Shown in pieces: positions 1 to 12,079 of a stretch of DNA of 20,633 bases; positions within the stretch are counted from its first letter, which is position 1, and the number at the start of each line of letters is the position of its first letter. A program made the translations under genes and the position numbers. This DNA comes from a virus, in IMG/VR virus record IMGVR_UViG_3300036985_002583, positions 1 through 20,633 of that record; one strand, written 5' to 3'. The notes beneath the pieces are model-generated. The model ran no database searches. It was not told the DNA's origin and was given only the letters and a program-made list of their open reading frames with translations.

Positions 1-383
1 TTCATTAGATGCTTAACTTTTTTGTTTGCCTCAGAATAATGCCTGCCGAACTCCGTTCCATTTTTGATAGCAGATTTATCCAACAAATCATTGTAAAGAG
101 TAGTTAGCGGGTCAATGACCAACGTTATGTACTCATGTTTTTCTGTCAACAGAGATTTTACTTCTGTTATTACTTCATCGAAGTCTGTTGTCTGAAATAT
201 AACGCCACCATTTTTAGAAAGCATGGTAGTGTACTGACTATTTTCACTTCCTCGCTCTGTATCTATTAAATAGACCTTTGGGAAAGATATGGCTGCGGTA
301 GTCTTTCCCACGCCGCTTGTTCCATAAAATAATGCTTTCAATCTTTTCTGTATGCTTTCAGGTTTAACGCCACGTAACGCCAT
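1..383 (-). CDS. Sak4-like RecA-fold ATPase, partial (cut by left edge)
   Basis: The N-terminal 127 residues are visible. They carry a Walker A motif GTSGVGKT at residues 21-28 and a hydrophobic Walker B strand ending in Asp (ITLVID, about 86-91). An LIDTERGS segment between them is typical of the phage AAA_24/Sak4 nucleotide-binding family. Sak4-type proteins are RecA-core ATPases that work with a phage single-strand binding protein in recombination and annealing; that role is inferred from the family. The ATG at 383 is chosen because GGAG lies a short distance upstream. This is the most distal visible gene of the leftward early operon. A recombination, SSB or nuclease gene would be expected just beyond the left edge. 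Assignment to the P-loop fold is firm; the exact subfamily is less so. Confidence 0.8.
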   Translation of the reverse strand, partial: MALRGVKPESIQKRLKALFYGTSGVGKTTAAISFPKVYLIDTERGSENSQYTTMLSKNGGVIFQTTDFDEVITEVKSLLTEKHEYITLVIDPLTTLYNDLLDKSAIKNGTEFGRHYSEANKKVKHLM

Positions 384-3802: not shown

Positions 3803-4014
3803 TGAACCGAGGGCTATGGATAGCTCGAAAGAATTACCTGTGTACGTTGATTAGGAGCGTGTCAGACGGTTACGGTGGTGATGACATAGAATTCCTTAGG
3901 CAGCACTGCAAGGAAGTGATAGAAGCTCATCCTGATGAGTTGATTGAGGACGCGATTGCTTGCTATCAGGAGATGGTTGAGCAGTTGAAATATTACCCGG
4001 AGAGGAAGATATGA
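3802..4014 (+). CDS. Small hypothetical protein, 70 aa
   Basis: The ATG at 3802 overlaps the stop of the P-like gene (TAATG) with GGGG just upstream, so translation is probably coupled. The 70-residue product is mainly helical and acidic in its second half (HPDELIEDAIACYQEM), with no membrane segment. It lies in the replication operon between helicase loader and nuclease. I do not recognise the family. Confidence 0.7.
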   Translation: MNRGLWIARKNYLCTLIRSVSDGYGGDDIEFLRQHCKEVIEAHPDELIEDAIACYQEMVEQLKYYPERKI

Positions 4015-4211
4015 AATGGTATAGCGTAAGAACACACAAGCCATCTGTAACCTGTTCTGATTGCATGGTTAGAACTAGAGGCGGCGGCATTAAGTTAGCA
4101 ACCAATATCGAAATGCCAGATGGTAGCTACCAGTGGGAATGTTTTGATGGCGATCAAATTAACGACGTTACACATTTTTGCATACCCGAACCAGTAGAGA
4201 TTGAAGAATGA
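4011..4211 (+). CDS. Small hypothetical protein, 66 aa
   Basis: Start and upstream stop overlap as ATGA at 4011-4014, with AGAGGA as ribosome site. The protein has CSDC (about residues 15-18) and a later single Cys in HFCIPEP, plus several Trp residues. This could be a small beta-rich or metal-binding domain, but the pattern is not a full zinc-finger signature. Its place in the replication operon suggests an accessory role in DNA metabolism. No family recognised. Confidence 0.7.
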   Translation: MKWYSVRTHKPSVTCSDCMVRTRGGGIKLATNIEMPDGSYQWECFDGDQINDVTHFCIPEPVEIEE

Positions 4212-6763: not shown

Positions 6764-6949
6764 ATGTTGTGCAAATCATGTGGCTACCCTGATTCGCATG
6801 TAGTTGAAACGAAAAAGGATGAAAAGCTTAACCAAATTATTCGCCGACGTGAATGCATTAAATGCGGCATACGCTATAACACACAAGAGCACATACACAG
6901 CAGACCTAACTATAAAACCCCATCGCCGAAAAAGGTGTTAGACAAATGA
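6764..6949 (+). CDS. Stand-alone NrdR-type zinc ribbon protein, 61 aa
   Basis: The N-terminal 42 residues match the zinc ribbon of bacterial NrdR. Cys3 and Cys6 in CKSC, IIRRREC with Cys31, and Cys34, then RYNTQE, have the same spacing as E. coli NrdR. NrdR is a repressor of ribonucleotide reductase genes that uses a zinc ribbon to bind NrdR boxes and an ATP-cone to sense nucleotides. The ATP-cone (about 100 residues) is absent here; only a short basic tail follows. The protein could bind DNA on its own, compete with host NrdR, or simply reuse the fold in packaging. The gene starts right after the previous stop, and its own stop overlaps terL (ATGA). Confidence 0.75.
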   Translation: MLCKSCGYPDSHVVETKKDEKLNQIIRRRECIKCGIRYNTQEHIHSRPNYKTPSPKKVLDK

Positions 6950-8505
6950 TGTTAAGCGCTGCGGGTATTGCCAGAGATATTGCTGAAATTAGACATCAGA
7001 GACAAAAAGGGATTGAGCGTCAAATAACAATTACAGATACAAGGATGGTCATTCATGCAAGAGAGCAGGATAAAATCTACGTTCCGACTACGACTGGTCA
7101 TATTGCTCATATCGATAATAGCTTTGTGCGCATCATTATGGGCCCTTATGGAAGTGGCAAGTCTACGTGGGCACTTACTGAAATCGTACAGCGCGCCTGT
7201 GCAGTGCCTGTGTGGCATGCCGGAAGACGAAGAAGCCGATGGGCCATCGTTCGAAACACAAGCGGAGAACTAAGCTCTACCACTCTTGCGTCATGGTTGT
7301 CATGGTTTGAAGACCTTGGAGACGTGCGCAAACGTCAGAAACCTATCATGACTTACGAACACAGCTTTAACGATGGTCACGGTATAGTTGAGCTAGAGCT
7401 GCTGTTTATAGCCCTAGATAGACCTGAGGACGTGCGTAAGATTAAATCCCTGGAGTTAACAGGCTGTTACATAAACGAGCTTTCAGAGGTTCCTAAAGCG
7501 GCTTTAGCGCACATGAAAGGTCGTGTTAATCGATATCCTAGTAAAGCATTCTGCACGGAACCCTATTGGTCGGGCATTATTGCGGACACTAACCCGCCGG
7601 AAGATGATCACTGGATATTTAAAGATTTTGAAGAAAACACGTACGACCATCACAAACTGTTTAAACAGCCGCCGGGATTAATCAAAAATGATGACAACAA
7701 ATGGGTACGTAATCCCGATGCTGACAATGCTAGTCATTTACCTGCTAATTATTATGAAATGCTTGCCGAAGGACAATCACAGGAGTTTATTAAAGTCTTT
7801 TGTCTTGGCGAATATGGTTCTGTTGGGTTTGGTAAACGTGTTTATCCGGAATTTAACCCGGACTTTCATGCGGTGGAATCGTTATCGGCGGCACAAGGTG
7901 AGCCTCTTATTCTGGGCTGGGATTTTGGTCTTACTCCTGCTTGCGTCGTTATGCAGTTGTCAGCTCGTGGATCTCTGCTAGTCCTCAAGGAATACGTTGG
8001 CGATGGCATGGGCATCAGAACCTTTGCAGACTCTATTGTTATTCCATGCCTACTCAGGGATTTCCCTTATTGCAAAGTAGGCATGTCCGTTGCAGACCCC
8101 GCAGGTAATGCACGAAATGAAATAGTTGAAGAAATGTCTTGCATCGGTGAATTGAACTCATTGAACATACCCACAACGGCTGCAAGAACAAATGATATTG
8201 ACCCAAGACTAGGAAGCGTTAGATACTTCTTAAACAAAATGGTTGATGGTAAACCTGGATTAATGCTTGATAGGCGCAATTGCCCCTCCTTATTTAAGGG
8301 GTTTGTAAAAGATTATGTGTATTCACGTGTAGCCGTGTCAGGTGAGGAACGTTACAAAGACAAGCCTAATAAAAACATGGCATCACATCCAATGGATGCT
8401 CTGGGTTATGGGTGTTTGGAGGTTGCTAGTGACCGGATTGCTAGTGACAAAATGGGAAACCAAAAGCCTGTTGATATGTACAATCCGGTGATGAGGATAT
8501 TTTGA
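6946..8505 (+). CDS. terL: Terminase large subunit
   Basis: The 519-residue protein is the packaging motor and headful or site nuclease. The ATPase domain shows Walker A GPYGSGKS at residues 66-73 and a Walker B with catalytic acid in LTGCYINE (about 171-178). The RNase H-like nuclease domain shows LGWDFG (Asp near 325), a second acidic site in VADPAGNARNE (about 383), and SHPMDALGYG (about 480), the third acidic position. ATP hydrolysis drives DNA into the prohead held by the portal, and the nuclease cuts the concatemer. Its start overlaps the stop of the zinc-ribbon gene (ATGATG). Length and motifs are intact. Assignment is secure. Confidence 0.95.
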   Translation: MMLSAAGIARDIAEIRHQRQKGIERQITITDTRMVIHAREQDKIYVPTTTGHIAHIDNSFVRIIMGPYGSGKSTWALTEIVQRACAVPVWHAGRRRSRWAIVRNTSGELSSTTLASWLSWFEDLGDVRKRQKPIMTYEHSFNDGHGIVELELLFIALDRPEDVRKIKSLELTGCYINELSEVPKAALAHMKGRVNRYPSKAFCTEPYWSGIIADTNPPEDDHWIFKDFEENTYDHHKLFKQPPGLIKNDDNKWVRNPDADNASHLPANYYEMLAEGQSQEFIKVFCLGEYGSVGFGKRVYPEFNPDFHAVESLSAAQGEPLILGWDFGLTPACVVMQLSARGSLLVLKEYVGDGMGIRTFADSIVIPCLLRDFPYCKVGMSVADPAGNARNEIVEEMSCIGELNSLNIPTTAARTNDIDPRLGSVRYFLNKMVDGKPGLMLDRRNCPSLFKGFVKDYVYSRVAVSGEERYKDKPNKNMASHPMDALGYGCLEVASDRIASDKMGNQKPVDMYNPVMRIF

Positions 8506-8759
8506 TGAATTTTCATCGCATGGATGTACTAGGGGTTCCAATTGGTGACTTGGAATGGTTGAAAGATGGAGAAAAAACAATGCAATTAGAGACTGATTTT
8601 GAATGGGATTTAATATACAAATCTACATACAACGAAACATGGCGTGCGATGGTTATCGGTGGGTGGCTAGTGAGACATCGAGAGCTTGGAAGTGATAATG
8701 GCGGGGAAGCATTATCAATGGTTTTTATTGCTGACCCATCTTACTCATGGGAAATATGA
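8505..8759 (+). CDS. Small hypothetical phage protein, 84 aa
   Basis: The ATG at 8505 overlaps the terL stop (TGATG). The product has a pattern seen in several small phage proteins: a Trp-rich middle with VIGGWLVRHRE, then ALSMVFIADPSYSW at the end. This suggests a small beta-rich domain. Function is unknown. It begins the accessory cassette between terL and portal. It is not an obvious structural gene. Confidence 0.7.
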   Translation: MNFHRMDVLGVPIGDLEWLKDGEKTMQLETDFEWDLIYKSTYNETWRAMVIGGWLVRHRELGSDNGGEALSMVFIADPSYSWEI

Positions 8760-8914
8760 TAATGTGCAATACAAAATGTATGTATTGTAAAAAGATAGAG
8801 CAAGAATTGAATGATAAACAAAGGTGCAAAGCTTGTGAGAAAGAATTTCAAGATATAGGTGCTGGCATCACTAAGCGTTACGGTGATGTTTTGCAGACAC
8901 TAGCCGAGAGGTAG
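8756..8914 (+). CDS. Small cysteine-rich protein, 52 aa, putative zinc finger
   Basis: ATG at 8756 overlaps the upstream stop (ATGA); ATG at 8762 is an alternative two codons later. The product has CNTKCMYC near the N terminus and RCKACEKEF further on, giving two Cys pairs that fit one zinc-binding knuckle. A short helical tail follows. Likely nucleic-acid or protein binding; family not recognised. The next gene starts three bases after its stop. Confidence 0.6.
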   Translation: MIMCNTKCMYCKKIEQELNDKQRCKACEKEFQDIGAGITKRYGDVLQTLAER

Positions 8915-8916
8915 AT

Positions 8917-9207
8917 ATGAATGATGAAATAATATTGCATGGTTTAAAAGACGCAGCATTTGCAATCAAAGAATCGCAACAAAGATTTGAGGAAATAGAA
9001 AAAATTATTACGGCGCAGTCCAATGGATGGTTTGACCATATTGATGGCCGATTGAATGAAGTTGAAGAAATATTAAACAGAATTACAGTAAATAATATAA
9101 CATCAGGTCGCAAACCACACAAATGCCCGGTGTGTTTTGGCAATGGCGATACCGAAGATTACAATCATTGTTTTCCATGTGACGGTAACGGTATTGTATG
9201 GGGTTAA
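8917..9207 (+). CDS. Coiled-coil protein with DnaJ-type Cys motifs, 96 aa
   Basis: Residues 1-60 form a charged helix with a coiled-coil character (IKESQQRFEEIEKIITA, RLNEVEEILNRI). The C-terminal part holds two CxxCxGxG motifs, CPVCFGNG and CFPCDGNG (about residues 70-93), the repeat of the DnaJ zinc-binding region. One such pair binds one zinc ion. There is no J domain, so it is not a true chaperone partner. GAGG lies five bases upstream of the ATG. Role unknown; part of the terL-portal cassette. Confidence 0.7.
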   Translation: MNDEIILHGLKDAAFAIKESQQRFEEIEKIITAQSNGWFDHIDGRLNEVEEILNRITVNNITSGRKPHKCPVCFGNGDTEDYNHCFPCDGNGIVWG

Positions 9208-9237
9208 GGAAAGCATTTAAATAAAACGGAGATTATG

Positions 9238-9498
9238 ATGGCTGAACAAAAACAAGTTACGTTGTTACTCAATTTTGCTGGCGAGAACAATGCAGTAGTT
9301 CCTCGTATGGGCCGGTTATATTGCCCTAACAACACATTAGCCGAAGTTTCTGCTGCTGGTTTTTTAGATAATTACCTACGCACTCAAAGCGCCAATCTGT
9401 TGCCCACTGACTTTGTTGCTGCCGTAGCATCAGATGGTCACCAATGGTACAAGCCTGTTTTTACTATCGGTTCATGCCAGCTAACTGTTTTACCGTAA
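9238..9498 (+). CDS. Hypothetical protein, 86 aa
   Basis: The second ATG (9238) is chosen because GGAG lies six bases upstream; the ATG at 9235 is too close. The protein is beta-rich by inspection, with hydrophobic/polar alternation and segments such as VTLLLNFAG and SCQLTVLP at the ends. It has no signal peptide. It could be a small capsid-associated or decoration protein, but I see no diagnostic motif. It lies directly before the Tad2-like gene. Confidence 0.65.
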   Translation: MAEQKQVTLLLNFAGENNAVVPRMGRLYCPNNTLAEVSAAGFLDNYLRTQSANLLPTDFVAAVASDGHQWYKPVFTIGSCQLTVLP

Positions 9499-9522
9499 AC
9501 TAAAACCAAGGGAGAAATAAAG

Positions 9523-9780
9523 ATGTTGTTGCAAGAAGCGTTAAAGATGTTACAAGAAGGTGAAGTATTATGTCGTGAAGCATGGTCATTTAACGATGGC
9601 TATTTAACGATGATGAAAGGCATGACGCACGTGTGGAAAATCGTGTTACAACCATCGCCTAATGCGGGTAACTACATTTTCTCTTTGGCTGATTTGTTGG
9701 CTGATGATTGGAAATTATTTGAAATGCCCAAAGACGCAGTAGATGCAATAATTGAAGGAAAAGTTGAGCAAGTAGCTTAA
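9523..9780 (+). CDS. DUF2829/Tad2-like protein, possible Thoeris anti-defence
   Basis: The 85-residue protein fits the DUF2829 pattern: an N-terminal helix LQEALKMLQEGEVLCREAW (residues 3-21) with the 'EAL..L..G..V.R..W' spacing, a GYL strand (26-28), a beta stretch ending in WKIVL (38-42), and a closing SLADLLADDWKLF (54-66). Members of this family include Tad2, a phage protein that sequesters the cyclic ADP-ribose-type signal of Thoeris immunity as a tetramer. The family link is by eye; the anti-defence role is inferred from it. The C-terminal 19 residues are an extra acidic helix. GGGAG precedes the ATG. It closes the accessory cassette and is followed by a hairpin before the portal gene, which fits a moron-like position. 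Confidence 0.6.
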   Translation: MLLQEALKMLQEGEVLCREAWSFNDGYLTMMKGMTHVWKIVLQPSPNAGNYIFSLADLLADDWKLFEMPKDAVDAIIEGKVEQVA

Positions 9781-9824
9781 CTGACAAACTTAGGACAAGA
9801 CGACCTGAGTAAAAGTATGCAACT

Positions 9825-9860
9825 CGTGACTTTAACAAAAAACGGTTGAAGTCACGTTTT
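9825..9860 (+). terminator. Hairpin after Tad2-like gene, possible terminator
   Basis: CGTGACTT (9825-9832) pairs perfectly with AAGTCACG (9849-9856), with a 16-base loop that can pair further (AAC/GTT), followed by TTTT. It lies between the accessory cassette and the portal gene. The T-run is short, so termination may be partial. Confidence 0.55.
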
Positions 9861-9892
9861 AAAGACAATTAACCCAACGGACGGGGAAGTGC

Positions 9893-12079
9893 ATGGAAAT
9901 CATTGCCGATCAGATCTCAGCGGAAGATATCGACAGCATCAACGAAGCATTAAGCCAAAAATTGGCCGATGCTGGCATTGATGAAGCCGAAGTATTAAAG
10001 AAAGCGCGCGAAGACCTAATCCTTTGGGAAGGTTATTTTGGCGAGAACGTAACGCGCGGCAAAGATGATATGAATTTTGTCTTACGTGACCAATGGTCGG
10101 CCGTTGAACGCTCGGAGTTTAACCGTTTGTTTAAACCCGCTATGACGTTCAACAAGCTTTATGATACAACCAAGAAAGTAGTGGGAGAACAACGCAAGAA
10201 TAAACCTGACTTAATGGTAAGGTCACTAACAGGAAAATCCACGCAGAAACAAATAGACCTAAGGGCAGACTTAGTCCGAACAATATCTTATCAATCAGAA
10301 AACGATTTAGTTTATCAGACGGCATTTAGGTCAGCCCTTATGATGGGTTACGGTGCGTTTGAGATATGCCTAGATTATGAAAGTCCCACATCATTTAATC
10401 AAATCATTCGTTATGAATTAATTCCTGATGCTACACGAACATCCTTTGACCCTACTGCATTAAAGCCACACAAAGGTGATGGTAATTTTTGCGCCAGACA
10501 ATACGTGTACACAAAAGAAGAATTTTATGCCACATTTCCGGCCGTTATGAATCCGGTTTCATATTCTGACCCTCGGTCACTTTTAGATTTTCAATGGGAA
10601 ACTCGAGATACAATTATTGTTTGCAAATATTCACGCAAAGAATGGTTTACCATTAAATTGTTTCTTTTAAGTGATGGCAGAAGCGTTACCGAAGAAGAAT
10701 GGGAAGAAATGCAACCCGAAATCAAAATGCAAACAGAACTTGCCGATGCATCACAAGTTGTTGGTGATTTAATTCGTAAAACAATTCCTGAAATTATCGG
10801 GGAACGAATGAGCAAGGATTATAAAATACGTCAATACGTGCTTACACAAAACCAAATCATTGAATTTACCGACTGGCCCTCTAAGTACCTGCCTATTATC
10901 TTTGTAGATGGTGACTCAAATTACATTAACGGCCAACAATACACGCGTTCATTTATTCATGAAGCTAAAGATGCTCAAAAGTTTGTAAACTACGTAGGCT
11001 CTGAAATTGCCGCAGAAATTAAAAACAGAAGACGCGAGCAATGGCTTGGTACGCCGGATAACATCAAGGGCAACGAACAAATGTGGCGTAATCCTGAGTT
11101 GCAAGCAGGAATGTTAACCGCAGCCCCAGACCCTAAAACTGGCGCAATGCCGCAGAAAATGCCGCAATGGGAGTTATCCGCAACCCTTCAGCAACAATTT
11201 CAACGTGGCTCACAAGACATTCGAGAAATACTTGGTTTTTCAGAAAACGAAGCCCTACAAGGTCACGATATGTCAGGCAAGGCACGGCGTGAGCGTAAAC
11301 TCGAAGGCTCTATGTCGGCTTATGTCTGGTTTGATAATTTAAACCAAGCCGTTGAACAGGGTGGACGAGTTGTTTTAGACTTGTTACCCGTAGTTGCGGG
11401 CGAATTTGAACGCCATATGGTTGTATCTAAAGCTGATGGACATACAGAATCAATAATATTAAATAAAGTAACAGGCGAAACGGAAGATGGCGATTCAATT
11501 AGAGATAATACTCTTGATGGTGGCGATTATGATGTTGAAATTGATACAGGCCCAAGTTTTGCAGTTCAGAAAGATATGGCACTTGAATTTTTTCAGCAAA
11601 CATTACAGGCTAATCCTCAAGTGTTTCCTCTTATTGCCGATTTATGGGCTAAAAATCTTGACGTTCAATTTATGCCTCAAATCTCTGAACGGTTTAAAAC
11701 ACTGGTTCCACCTCAAATTATTGCTAAAGAAGAAGGCAAGCAATTGCCTCCTCAGCCTCCGAATCCTCAAGAACAAATGATGCAAGCTCAATTAGCTCAA
11801 CAACAACAAGCGTTAAAGATAAATGAACAAAAAATGCACCTTGAAGAACAACAAATCATGGAGCGCGCAGAAGAGTTAAAAATACGTAAAGAGAAACATT
11901 TGCTTGAACAAGCTGAAATGATTCTCAAAGCACAAGAAATGAAACGCAAGGCAGGTCTTGAAGAACAACATCTTAAAGTTCAACATGGCAAATTATTGCT
12001 TGATGCAGACAAAGCAGAAAAAAACTTTTCAACTCAAATTGCCAAAGTCTTATCTGAAATACATCGCCATAACAATTAA
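9893..12079 (+). CDS. Portal protein, P22 gp1-like
   Basis: The 728-residue length is close to the 725 of P22 gp1. The N terminus has the family features LWEGYFGENVTRGKDDMNF, QWSAVERSEFNRLFKPAMTFN and VVGEQRKNKPDL (about residues 45-105), followed by the ALMMGYGAFEI region. The C-terminal 110 residues are a long Gln/Glu/Lys-rich helix, matching the barrel helices of P22-type portals that extend into the capsid. Twelve copies form the ring through which TerL pumps DNA and to which gp4 attaches. GGGGA lies upstream of the ATG. The gene is complete and unbroken. Assignment is strong. Confidence 0.9.
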   Translation: MEIIADQISAEDIDSINEALSQKLADAGIDEAEVLKKAREDLILWEGYFGENVTRGKDDMNFVLRDQWSAVERSEFNRLFKPAMTFNKLYDTTKKVVGEQRKNKPDLMVRSLTGKSTQKQIDLRADLVRTISYQSENDLVYQTAFRSALMMGYGAFEICLDYESPTSFNQIIRYELIPDATRTSFDPTALKPHKGDGNFCARQYVYTKEEFYATFPAVMNPVSYSDPRSLLDFQWETRDTIIVCKYSRKEWFTIKLFLLSDGRSVTEEEWEEMQPEIKMQTELADASQVVGDLIRKTIPEIIGERMSKDYKIRQYVLTQNQIIEFTDWPSKYLPIIFVDGDSNYINGQQYTRSFIHEAKDAQKFVNYVGSEIAAEIKNRRREQWLGTPDNIKGNEQMWRNPELQAGMLTAAPDPKTGAMPQKMPQWELSATLQQQFQRGSQDIREILGFSENEALQGHDMSGKARRERKLEGSMSAYVWFDNLNQAVEQGGRVVLDLLPVVAGEFERHMVVSKADGHTESIILNKVTGETEDGDSIRDNTLDGGDYDVEIDTGPSFAVQKDMALEFFQQTLQANPQVFPLIADLWAKNLDVQFMPQISERFKTLVPPQIIAKEEGKQLPPQPPNPQEQMMQAQLAQQQQALKINEQKMHLEEQQIMERAEELKIRKEKHLLEQAEMILKAQEMKRKAGLEEQHLKVQHGKLLLDADKAEKNFSTQIAKVLSEIHRHNN

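Follow-up and report, generated by a model that had tools for sequence, protein, structure and literature searches.

A Tad2-like gene at a fixed position beside the portal gene in a group of uncultured phages

What is encoded by the 85-amino-acid (aa) open reading frame (ORF) that lies between the genes for the terminase large subunit (terL) and the portal protein in the virus record IMGVR_UViG_3300036985_002583, and is it an optional passenger of the genome or a lasting part of it? A first-pass annotation of this 20,633-base record, the whole of which is the window analysed here, had placed the ORF (9523-9780) in that interval as a candidate anti-Thoeris gene of the Tad2 type, on account of a DUF2829-like spacing of its motifs. 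Both the location and the spacing were borne out: EALKMLQEG occupies residues 5-13 and is followed by R18, W21 and, at residues 57-63, DLLADDW. The ORF is a real gene (Table 1).

Its membership of the Tad2-like family is well supported. The protein matched PF11195 (Tad2-like, formerly DUF2829) in Pfam with E=2.2e-6 and 28.5 bits, exceeding the curated threshold (25 bits), as the first-pass annotation had anticipated. We found 41 relatives in IMG/VR, all metagenomic; counts of relatives are lower bounds here, the scans having used exact seed patterns. All 38 aligned relatives matched PF11195 as well, each at E<=0.1. A profile of the clade reached solved Tad2 proteins in PDB by sequence alone, with E=9e-4 for SPO1 Tad2, 2e-3 for ModTad2 and 3e-3 for HgmTad2/AcrIIA7; SptTad2 was also among the matches, which together ranged from 9e-4 to 0.02. 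The single 85-aa sequence stayed below significance against PDB (E=0.17), gave no result with PADLOC or NCBIfam, and found nothing significant in a tblastn search of named phages. Its PHROG matches were weak and included a ‘transcriptional regulator’ family, a label that we regard as uninformative since SPO1 Tad2 is weakly matched by the same family. When the whole window was scanned, PF11195 was matched only once, which speaks against a second Tad2-like gene inside it.

The predicted structure agrees with this assignment. Using AlphaFold2 and the clade alignment, we obtained a model with a mean predicted local distance difference test (pLDDT) score of 85, which was at least 90 in every ten-residue block up to residue 70 and below 50 at residues 74-76 and 78-85. 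The elements of the model follow the order α1 (3-11), β1 (16-18), β2 (27-29), β3 (38-41), β4 (47-50), α3 (55-59) and β5 (63-65), with β3 and β4 forming the central beta part that had been read from the sequence. Tad2 chains took the top Foldseek ranks, and every solved Tad2 listed in the VIA comparison had the same fold, with Z scores of 10.2-11.1 and a root-mean-square deviation (rmsd) of 1.7-2.0 Å over 64-66 residues. The next unrelated row was the neck protein of phage 812 (8qkh), with a Z score of 5.5 and an rmsd of 4.7. The fold domain spans approximately residues 1-67, and what lies beyond is variable. An extra acidic C-terminal helix, as described at first, does not appear in the model, where no helix is predicted past residue 59; among relatives, the stretch beyond residue 66 is 4 to 24 residues long, with a net charge between -8 and +1 (-3 in the window copy). 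As modelled, the acidic C-terminus is thus a variable low-confidence tail and not a conserved helix.

Regarding the known Tad2-type proteins, SPO1 Tad2 (gp34.65; PDB 8sme, 8smf, 8smg and 8wje) shares the Pfam family and the fold, and superposed on the window model with Z scores of 10.5-11.1 and an rmsd of 1.7-2.0 over 65 residues, at 23% identity. Both proteins have the EAL..LK.G...R..W start and the D-LA-DW end. They differ at W-V-P-S-Q of SPO1 Tad2, which reads Y-I-F-S-L in the window protein, and in the setting of their genes, a small-gene region of a large phage for SPO1 and the head operon for the window. ModTad2, from a Myroides odoratus prophage (PDB 8v3e and 9eib) and a His-ADPR-binding Tad2 according to its PDB title, has the same fold (Z 10.3-10.6, 25% identity), but its middle part is longer and its gene prophage-borne. 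HgmTad2/AcrIIA7 (PDB 8kbi, 8kbj and 8kbk; Z 10.2-10.6) also shares the fold, but this 104-aa protein carries a long insertion between β2 and β5 (PMC12043709) that is absent from the window protein. A lytic soil phage with a short tail, Sinorhizobium phage AP-20-A, also encodes a Tad2-like domain with a putative function, in its protein P015; this protein has 97 aa, is 50.5% identical to ModTad2 and has been reported from one genome, whereas the window gene is core across its clade (PMC13299392).

Some named phages of other types carry PF11195 genes among their head genes. In the Klebsiella phage vB_KpnM_IME346, of a type unrelated to that of the window, gp52 (DUF2829; L150:2498-2743) directly follows terL and precedes a DUF1073 gene, probably the portal, and its sequence is canonical, with GWNGKGM and WAPSQTDVLAEDW. 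The PF11195 gene of NKA196 (L210:2992-3252), likewise unrelated, directly follows the major capsid gene. Within the same small, hand-picked sample, PF11195 genes lie after lysis genes in Louie, Pm86 and CBW1004C, and in the recombination region in IME_EC2.

We measured conservation on 46 distinct sequences, namely the window and those gathered via the portal gene, which are hence unselected for their own motifs. Conserved in at least 95% of them were M1, A6, L10, R18, W21, G26, Y27, G33, M34, W38, K39, P44, N47, A48, G49, N50, D62 and W63, among which WK and NAGN constitute the clade's own signature. N50 is followed by Y, F or H within the clade, and by W in the deepest relatives (L081, L085 and L087), which fall between the clade and canonical Tad2 in a tree that is rough, given the short sequences, but consistent; at the level of sequence, this W bridges the two. 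The gcADPR pocket of SPO1 Tad2 is lined by secondary-structure elements named in PMC12043709, all of which are present in the 85-aa model.

The gene had further been pictured as a moron, last in a small accessory cassette. It is indeed the last gene before the portal, but both this gene and the 87-aa ORF before it (9235-9498) are conserved in nearly all relatives, where they occur in the same order. Relatives found with the protein occupy the same slot wherever the contig reaches, after terL, mostly after a homologue of the 87-aa ORF, and before the portal. To avoid circularity, we also started from the portal, taking as testable those portal-found contigs with DNA upstream of that gene. At portal identities of at least 72%, the Tad2-like gene was directly upstream of the portal in all 45 testable contigs, which contradicts the patchy presence implied by a moron. 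At identities of 56-64%, three of the seven testable loci (L081, L085 and L087) had a diverged Tad2-like gene; L082, L084 and L086 showed no PF11195 match anywhere in the contig, and the match in L083 is located elsewhere in it. Still further away, the contig of L092 (portal 43% identical) starts inside a Tad2-like match, whose final 15 residues lie right before the portal (E=1.3e-4). According to these results, the pre-portal slot appears to have been occupied by a Tad2-like gene early, and the gene is now fixed in the clade of the window. The gene belongs to the core of an uncultured phage group with P22-like portals and contigs of approximately 34 kb. The protein evolves faster than the portal (mean identity among relatives of 62% versus 82%) and is under purifying selection, with a median ratio of nonsynonymous to synonymous substitution rates (dN/dS) of around 0.23, a rough value as dS is near saturation.

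From the family, fold, position, conservation and core status described above, we infer a function, together with an oligomeric state, a ligand and a late expression. With a probability of roughly one half, the 85-aa protein is a late-expressed Tad2-type signal sponge. A compact, single-domain Tad2-fold protein encoded among head-assembly genes would, by analogy with the Tad2 tetramer and its two ligand pockets, most likely form a homo-oligomer, and would bind and sequester a small signal of the ADP-ribose type, the product of a TIR defence in the host, either Thoeris or a relative. It might so protect the infection late in its course, as proteins of the capsid and portal, which are known triggers of TIR defences, accumulate. 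Thoeris is triggered by the major capsid protein (PMC12578639) and the TIR protein SpbK by the portal (PMC12847820), and a Tad2-type sponge encoded in the head operon would be at hand as these proteins arise. Tad1 and Tad2 were first found as genes separating Thoeris-resistant phages from their sensitive relatives (PMC12043709). A Tad2-like core gene that is fixed next to the portal, in genomes most of which have a second such gene (see below), suggests one of two things: either these phages cannot do without sequestering the signal, at the time when capsid or portal sets off TIR defence, or the Tad2 fold has taken on another, particle-linked job.

Several observations weigh against a sponge. 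The canonical W-x-P-S at the end of β4 reads Y-I-F-S in the window protein, and the pocket elements are no better conserved than the remainder of the protein (Fisher p=0.42, portal-seeded set). An enrichment of conserved pocket residues had been seen in another alignment (A1), and was discarded because the seed of A1 included the peptide PNAGNYIF, towards which that alignment is biased. Owing to the altered motif and the unexceptional conservation of the pocket, anti-Thoeris activity is only inferred, from sequence and model. As to the host, and hence the presence of Thoeris in it, the genome_contigs set contained no relative of the 85-aa protein, and the capsid protein matched just two contigs of metagenome-assembled genomes (MAGs), labelled Sulfuricurvum and Planctomycetota. 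These are probably phage contigs binned with the MAGs, and we claim no host from them. Finally, a gene in an arms race would not usually be fixed in its clade and so strongly conserved; these features are also compatible with a role in housekeeping or in the particle.

One could argue that the Tad2 fold has been re-used in the virion or in head assembly, as a portal-proximal decoration protein or an assembly factor, and that the gene owes its core status to a need of the particle. The fixed place beside the portal, seen in all 45 testable contigs, and the conserved surface signature WK/NAGN would be expected of such a protein, PF11195 genes can lie in head modules of SPO1-like or other named phages, and the best non-Tad2 fold match comes from the neck of phage 812, on which dimeric decoration proteins sit (PMC12886913). 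However, common arrangements can give matches of this order and those to Tad2 are far stronger, the phage 812 genome gave no PF11195 match at E<=1, and the gene is missing from some contigs whose portals are related (56-62% identical), so the head type does not strictly require it. We consider a particle role rather unlikely.

It is quite improbable, in our judgement, that the protein is a Tad2-type sponge for another nucleotide signal, be it a CBASS cyclic dinucleotide or an undescribed one, in place of a TIR product. Tad2 ligands do differ, from gcADPR for SPO1 to His-ADPR for ModTad2 (PMC13299392 and PDB titles), the clade has its own NAGN signature, and some Tad2 proteins also bind cyclic dinucleotides (PMC12043709). 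The latter ability has been ascribed to the insertion between β2 and β5 (PMC12043709), and since the window protein does not have it, being approximately 18 residues shorter than SPO1 Tad2 in the β2-β3 region, we would not expect it to bind cyclic dinucleotides. An action on another defence through protein contact, in the manner of the anti-CRISPR AcrIIA7, is very improbable: the same Pfam domain, DUF2829, does occur in AcrIIA7 (PMC6739104) and HgmTad2 is named AcrIIA7 in PDB entries, but none of the named neighbour genes gave any sign of an anti-CRISPR-associated regulator in Pfam or PHROG.

The reading as a signal sponge gains a further aspect from the relatives. After searching the whole of the 29 related contigs of at least 30 kb, we identified a further PF11195 gene in 22 of them and no match to a second one in the other seven. 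It is on the opposite strand in 22 out of 22, at 10.9-15.5 kb upstream of the late gene when counted around the contig. The ten second-gene proteins that were read are all two-domain proteins of around 124-133 aa; two of these gave 45.7 and 47.9 bits in a Pfam scan, and a tblastn search of named phages yielded no match. In L193 (2758-3138, minus strand) and L194 (4196-4570, plus strand), the second gene follows recombination genes for an AAA_24 ATPase and a DUF669-type protein, lying shortly after the AAA_24 gene and in its direction. Since the AAA_24 gene of the window is truncated by the window's end, a second Tad2-like gene, if present, would be just outside, and it probably sits just beyond the left end. 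The best of five uneven models of the two-domain protein (pLDDT of 87.6) matched Tad2 with Z scores of 9.0-9.8 over 61 residues. The first and last aligned residues belong to different halves of the protein, a hint at domain swapping in the model. For this model as for the 85-aa one, the best match outside Tad2 was to the neck of phage 812, a Staphylococcus phage (neck protein of PDB 8qkh, chains S and s), with Z scores of 4.5 and 5.5, respectively, which may reflect a distant relation or a common arrangement. Taken together, the two genes suggest two Tad2-like proteins with different timing or ligands. Only tentatively, and with more doubt than confidence, we extend this to two Tad2-fold sponges as standard equipment of the clade, a two-domain one in a divergent recombination module that would act early and a compact one in the head operon that would act late, the compact form binding a different signal from that of the known Tad2 proteins.

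Table 1. Position of the Tad2-like gene and of its surroundings in the window
Feature	Position	Strand	Evidence
AAA_24 ATPase gene, cut off by the window end	3-383	-	Pfam AAA_24, 56.7 bits
terL, terminase large subunit	6946-8505	+	PHROG E=1e-25; Pfam Terminase_3
Three small variable genes (8502-8759, 8747-8914, 8917-9207)	8502-9207	+	tblastn synteny
Core neighbour gene, 87 aa	9235-9498	+	tblastn synteny
AAGGGAG, likely ribosome-binding site for the 85-aa ORF	9508-9514	+	sequence; around 8 nucleotides 5' of the ORF
Tad2-like (PF11195) single-domain protein, 85 aa	9523-9780	+	ATG start; Pfam match, Tad2 fold match, core clade position
Conserved intergenic RNA element: 12-base-pair hairpin (9825-9856), then ATTAACCCAACGGACGGGG right before the portal start	9817-9892	+	covariation; covariance model
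Portal protein, P22-like	9893-12079	+	PHROG E=6.5e-83; tblastn to P22-like portals

Within the interval from terL to the portal, it is 8502-9207 that is truly accessory. By synteny, ORF 8502-8759 is rare among relatives, and ORFs 8747-8914 (a possible zinc ribbon, from a weak Pfam match only) and 8917-9207 are variably present. The interval takes up accessory genes, as seen from a cytosine-methyltransferase-like gene inserted between terL and the portal of the relative L081 (1429-2199, plus strand). The 87-aa neighbour had no Pfam, PHROG or NCBIfam match, and its homologue is also present in contigs without a Tad2-like gene at that place (L082, L084 and L086). In L083, the pre-portal interval without a Tad2-like gene encodes a 123-aa protein (3813-4184, plus strand) whose start, MKPFDLEKALAGEPVVTR, resembles that of Tad2; it had no Pfam match. 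The portal of the window is only around 25-27% identical to those of named phages by tblastn.

The hairpin reported downstream of the Tad2-like gene was recovered as well. A long stem is found in the gap between gene and portal in most of the 38 relatives scanned, usually ending 22-45 nucleotides before the portal start. Among 27 aligned sequences, 89.9% of the cells pair and 11 of the 16 pairs show changes on both sides; shuffled alignments gave a mean of 4.0 such pairs and reached 11 in none of 500 cases, and the signal was lost when the strands were slid by 1-3 columns. A covariance model detected the hairpin at the portal junction in contigs outside its building set, with just reverse-strand echoes of it and weak matches (E of around 0.1 or worse) elsewhere in 393 kb, and Rfam contained no match. 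The hairpin does not conform to the terminator consensus, the T-run being usually missing and inconsistent among relatives; for the window gene, promoter-like sites were at chance level and no terminator-like site was seen. The hairpin may act as an element of mRNA processing or stability, or in the control of portal translation. The motif ATTAACCCAAnGGATGGGG, right upstream of the portal start, accompanies this single-copy hairpin and is conserved across the clade (window 9817-9892).
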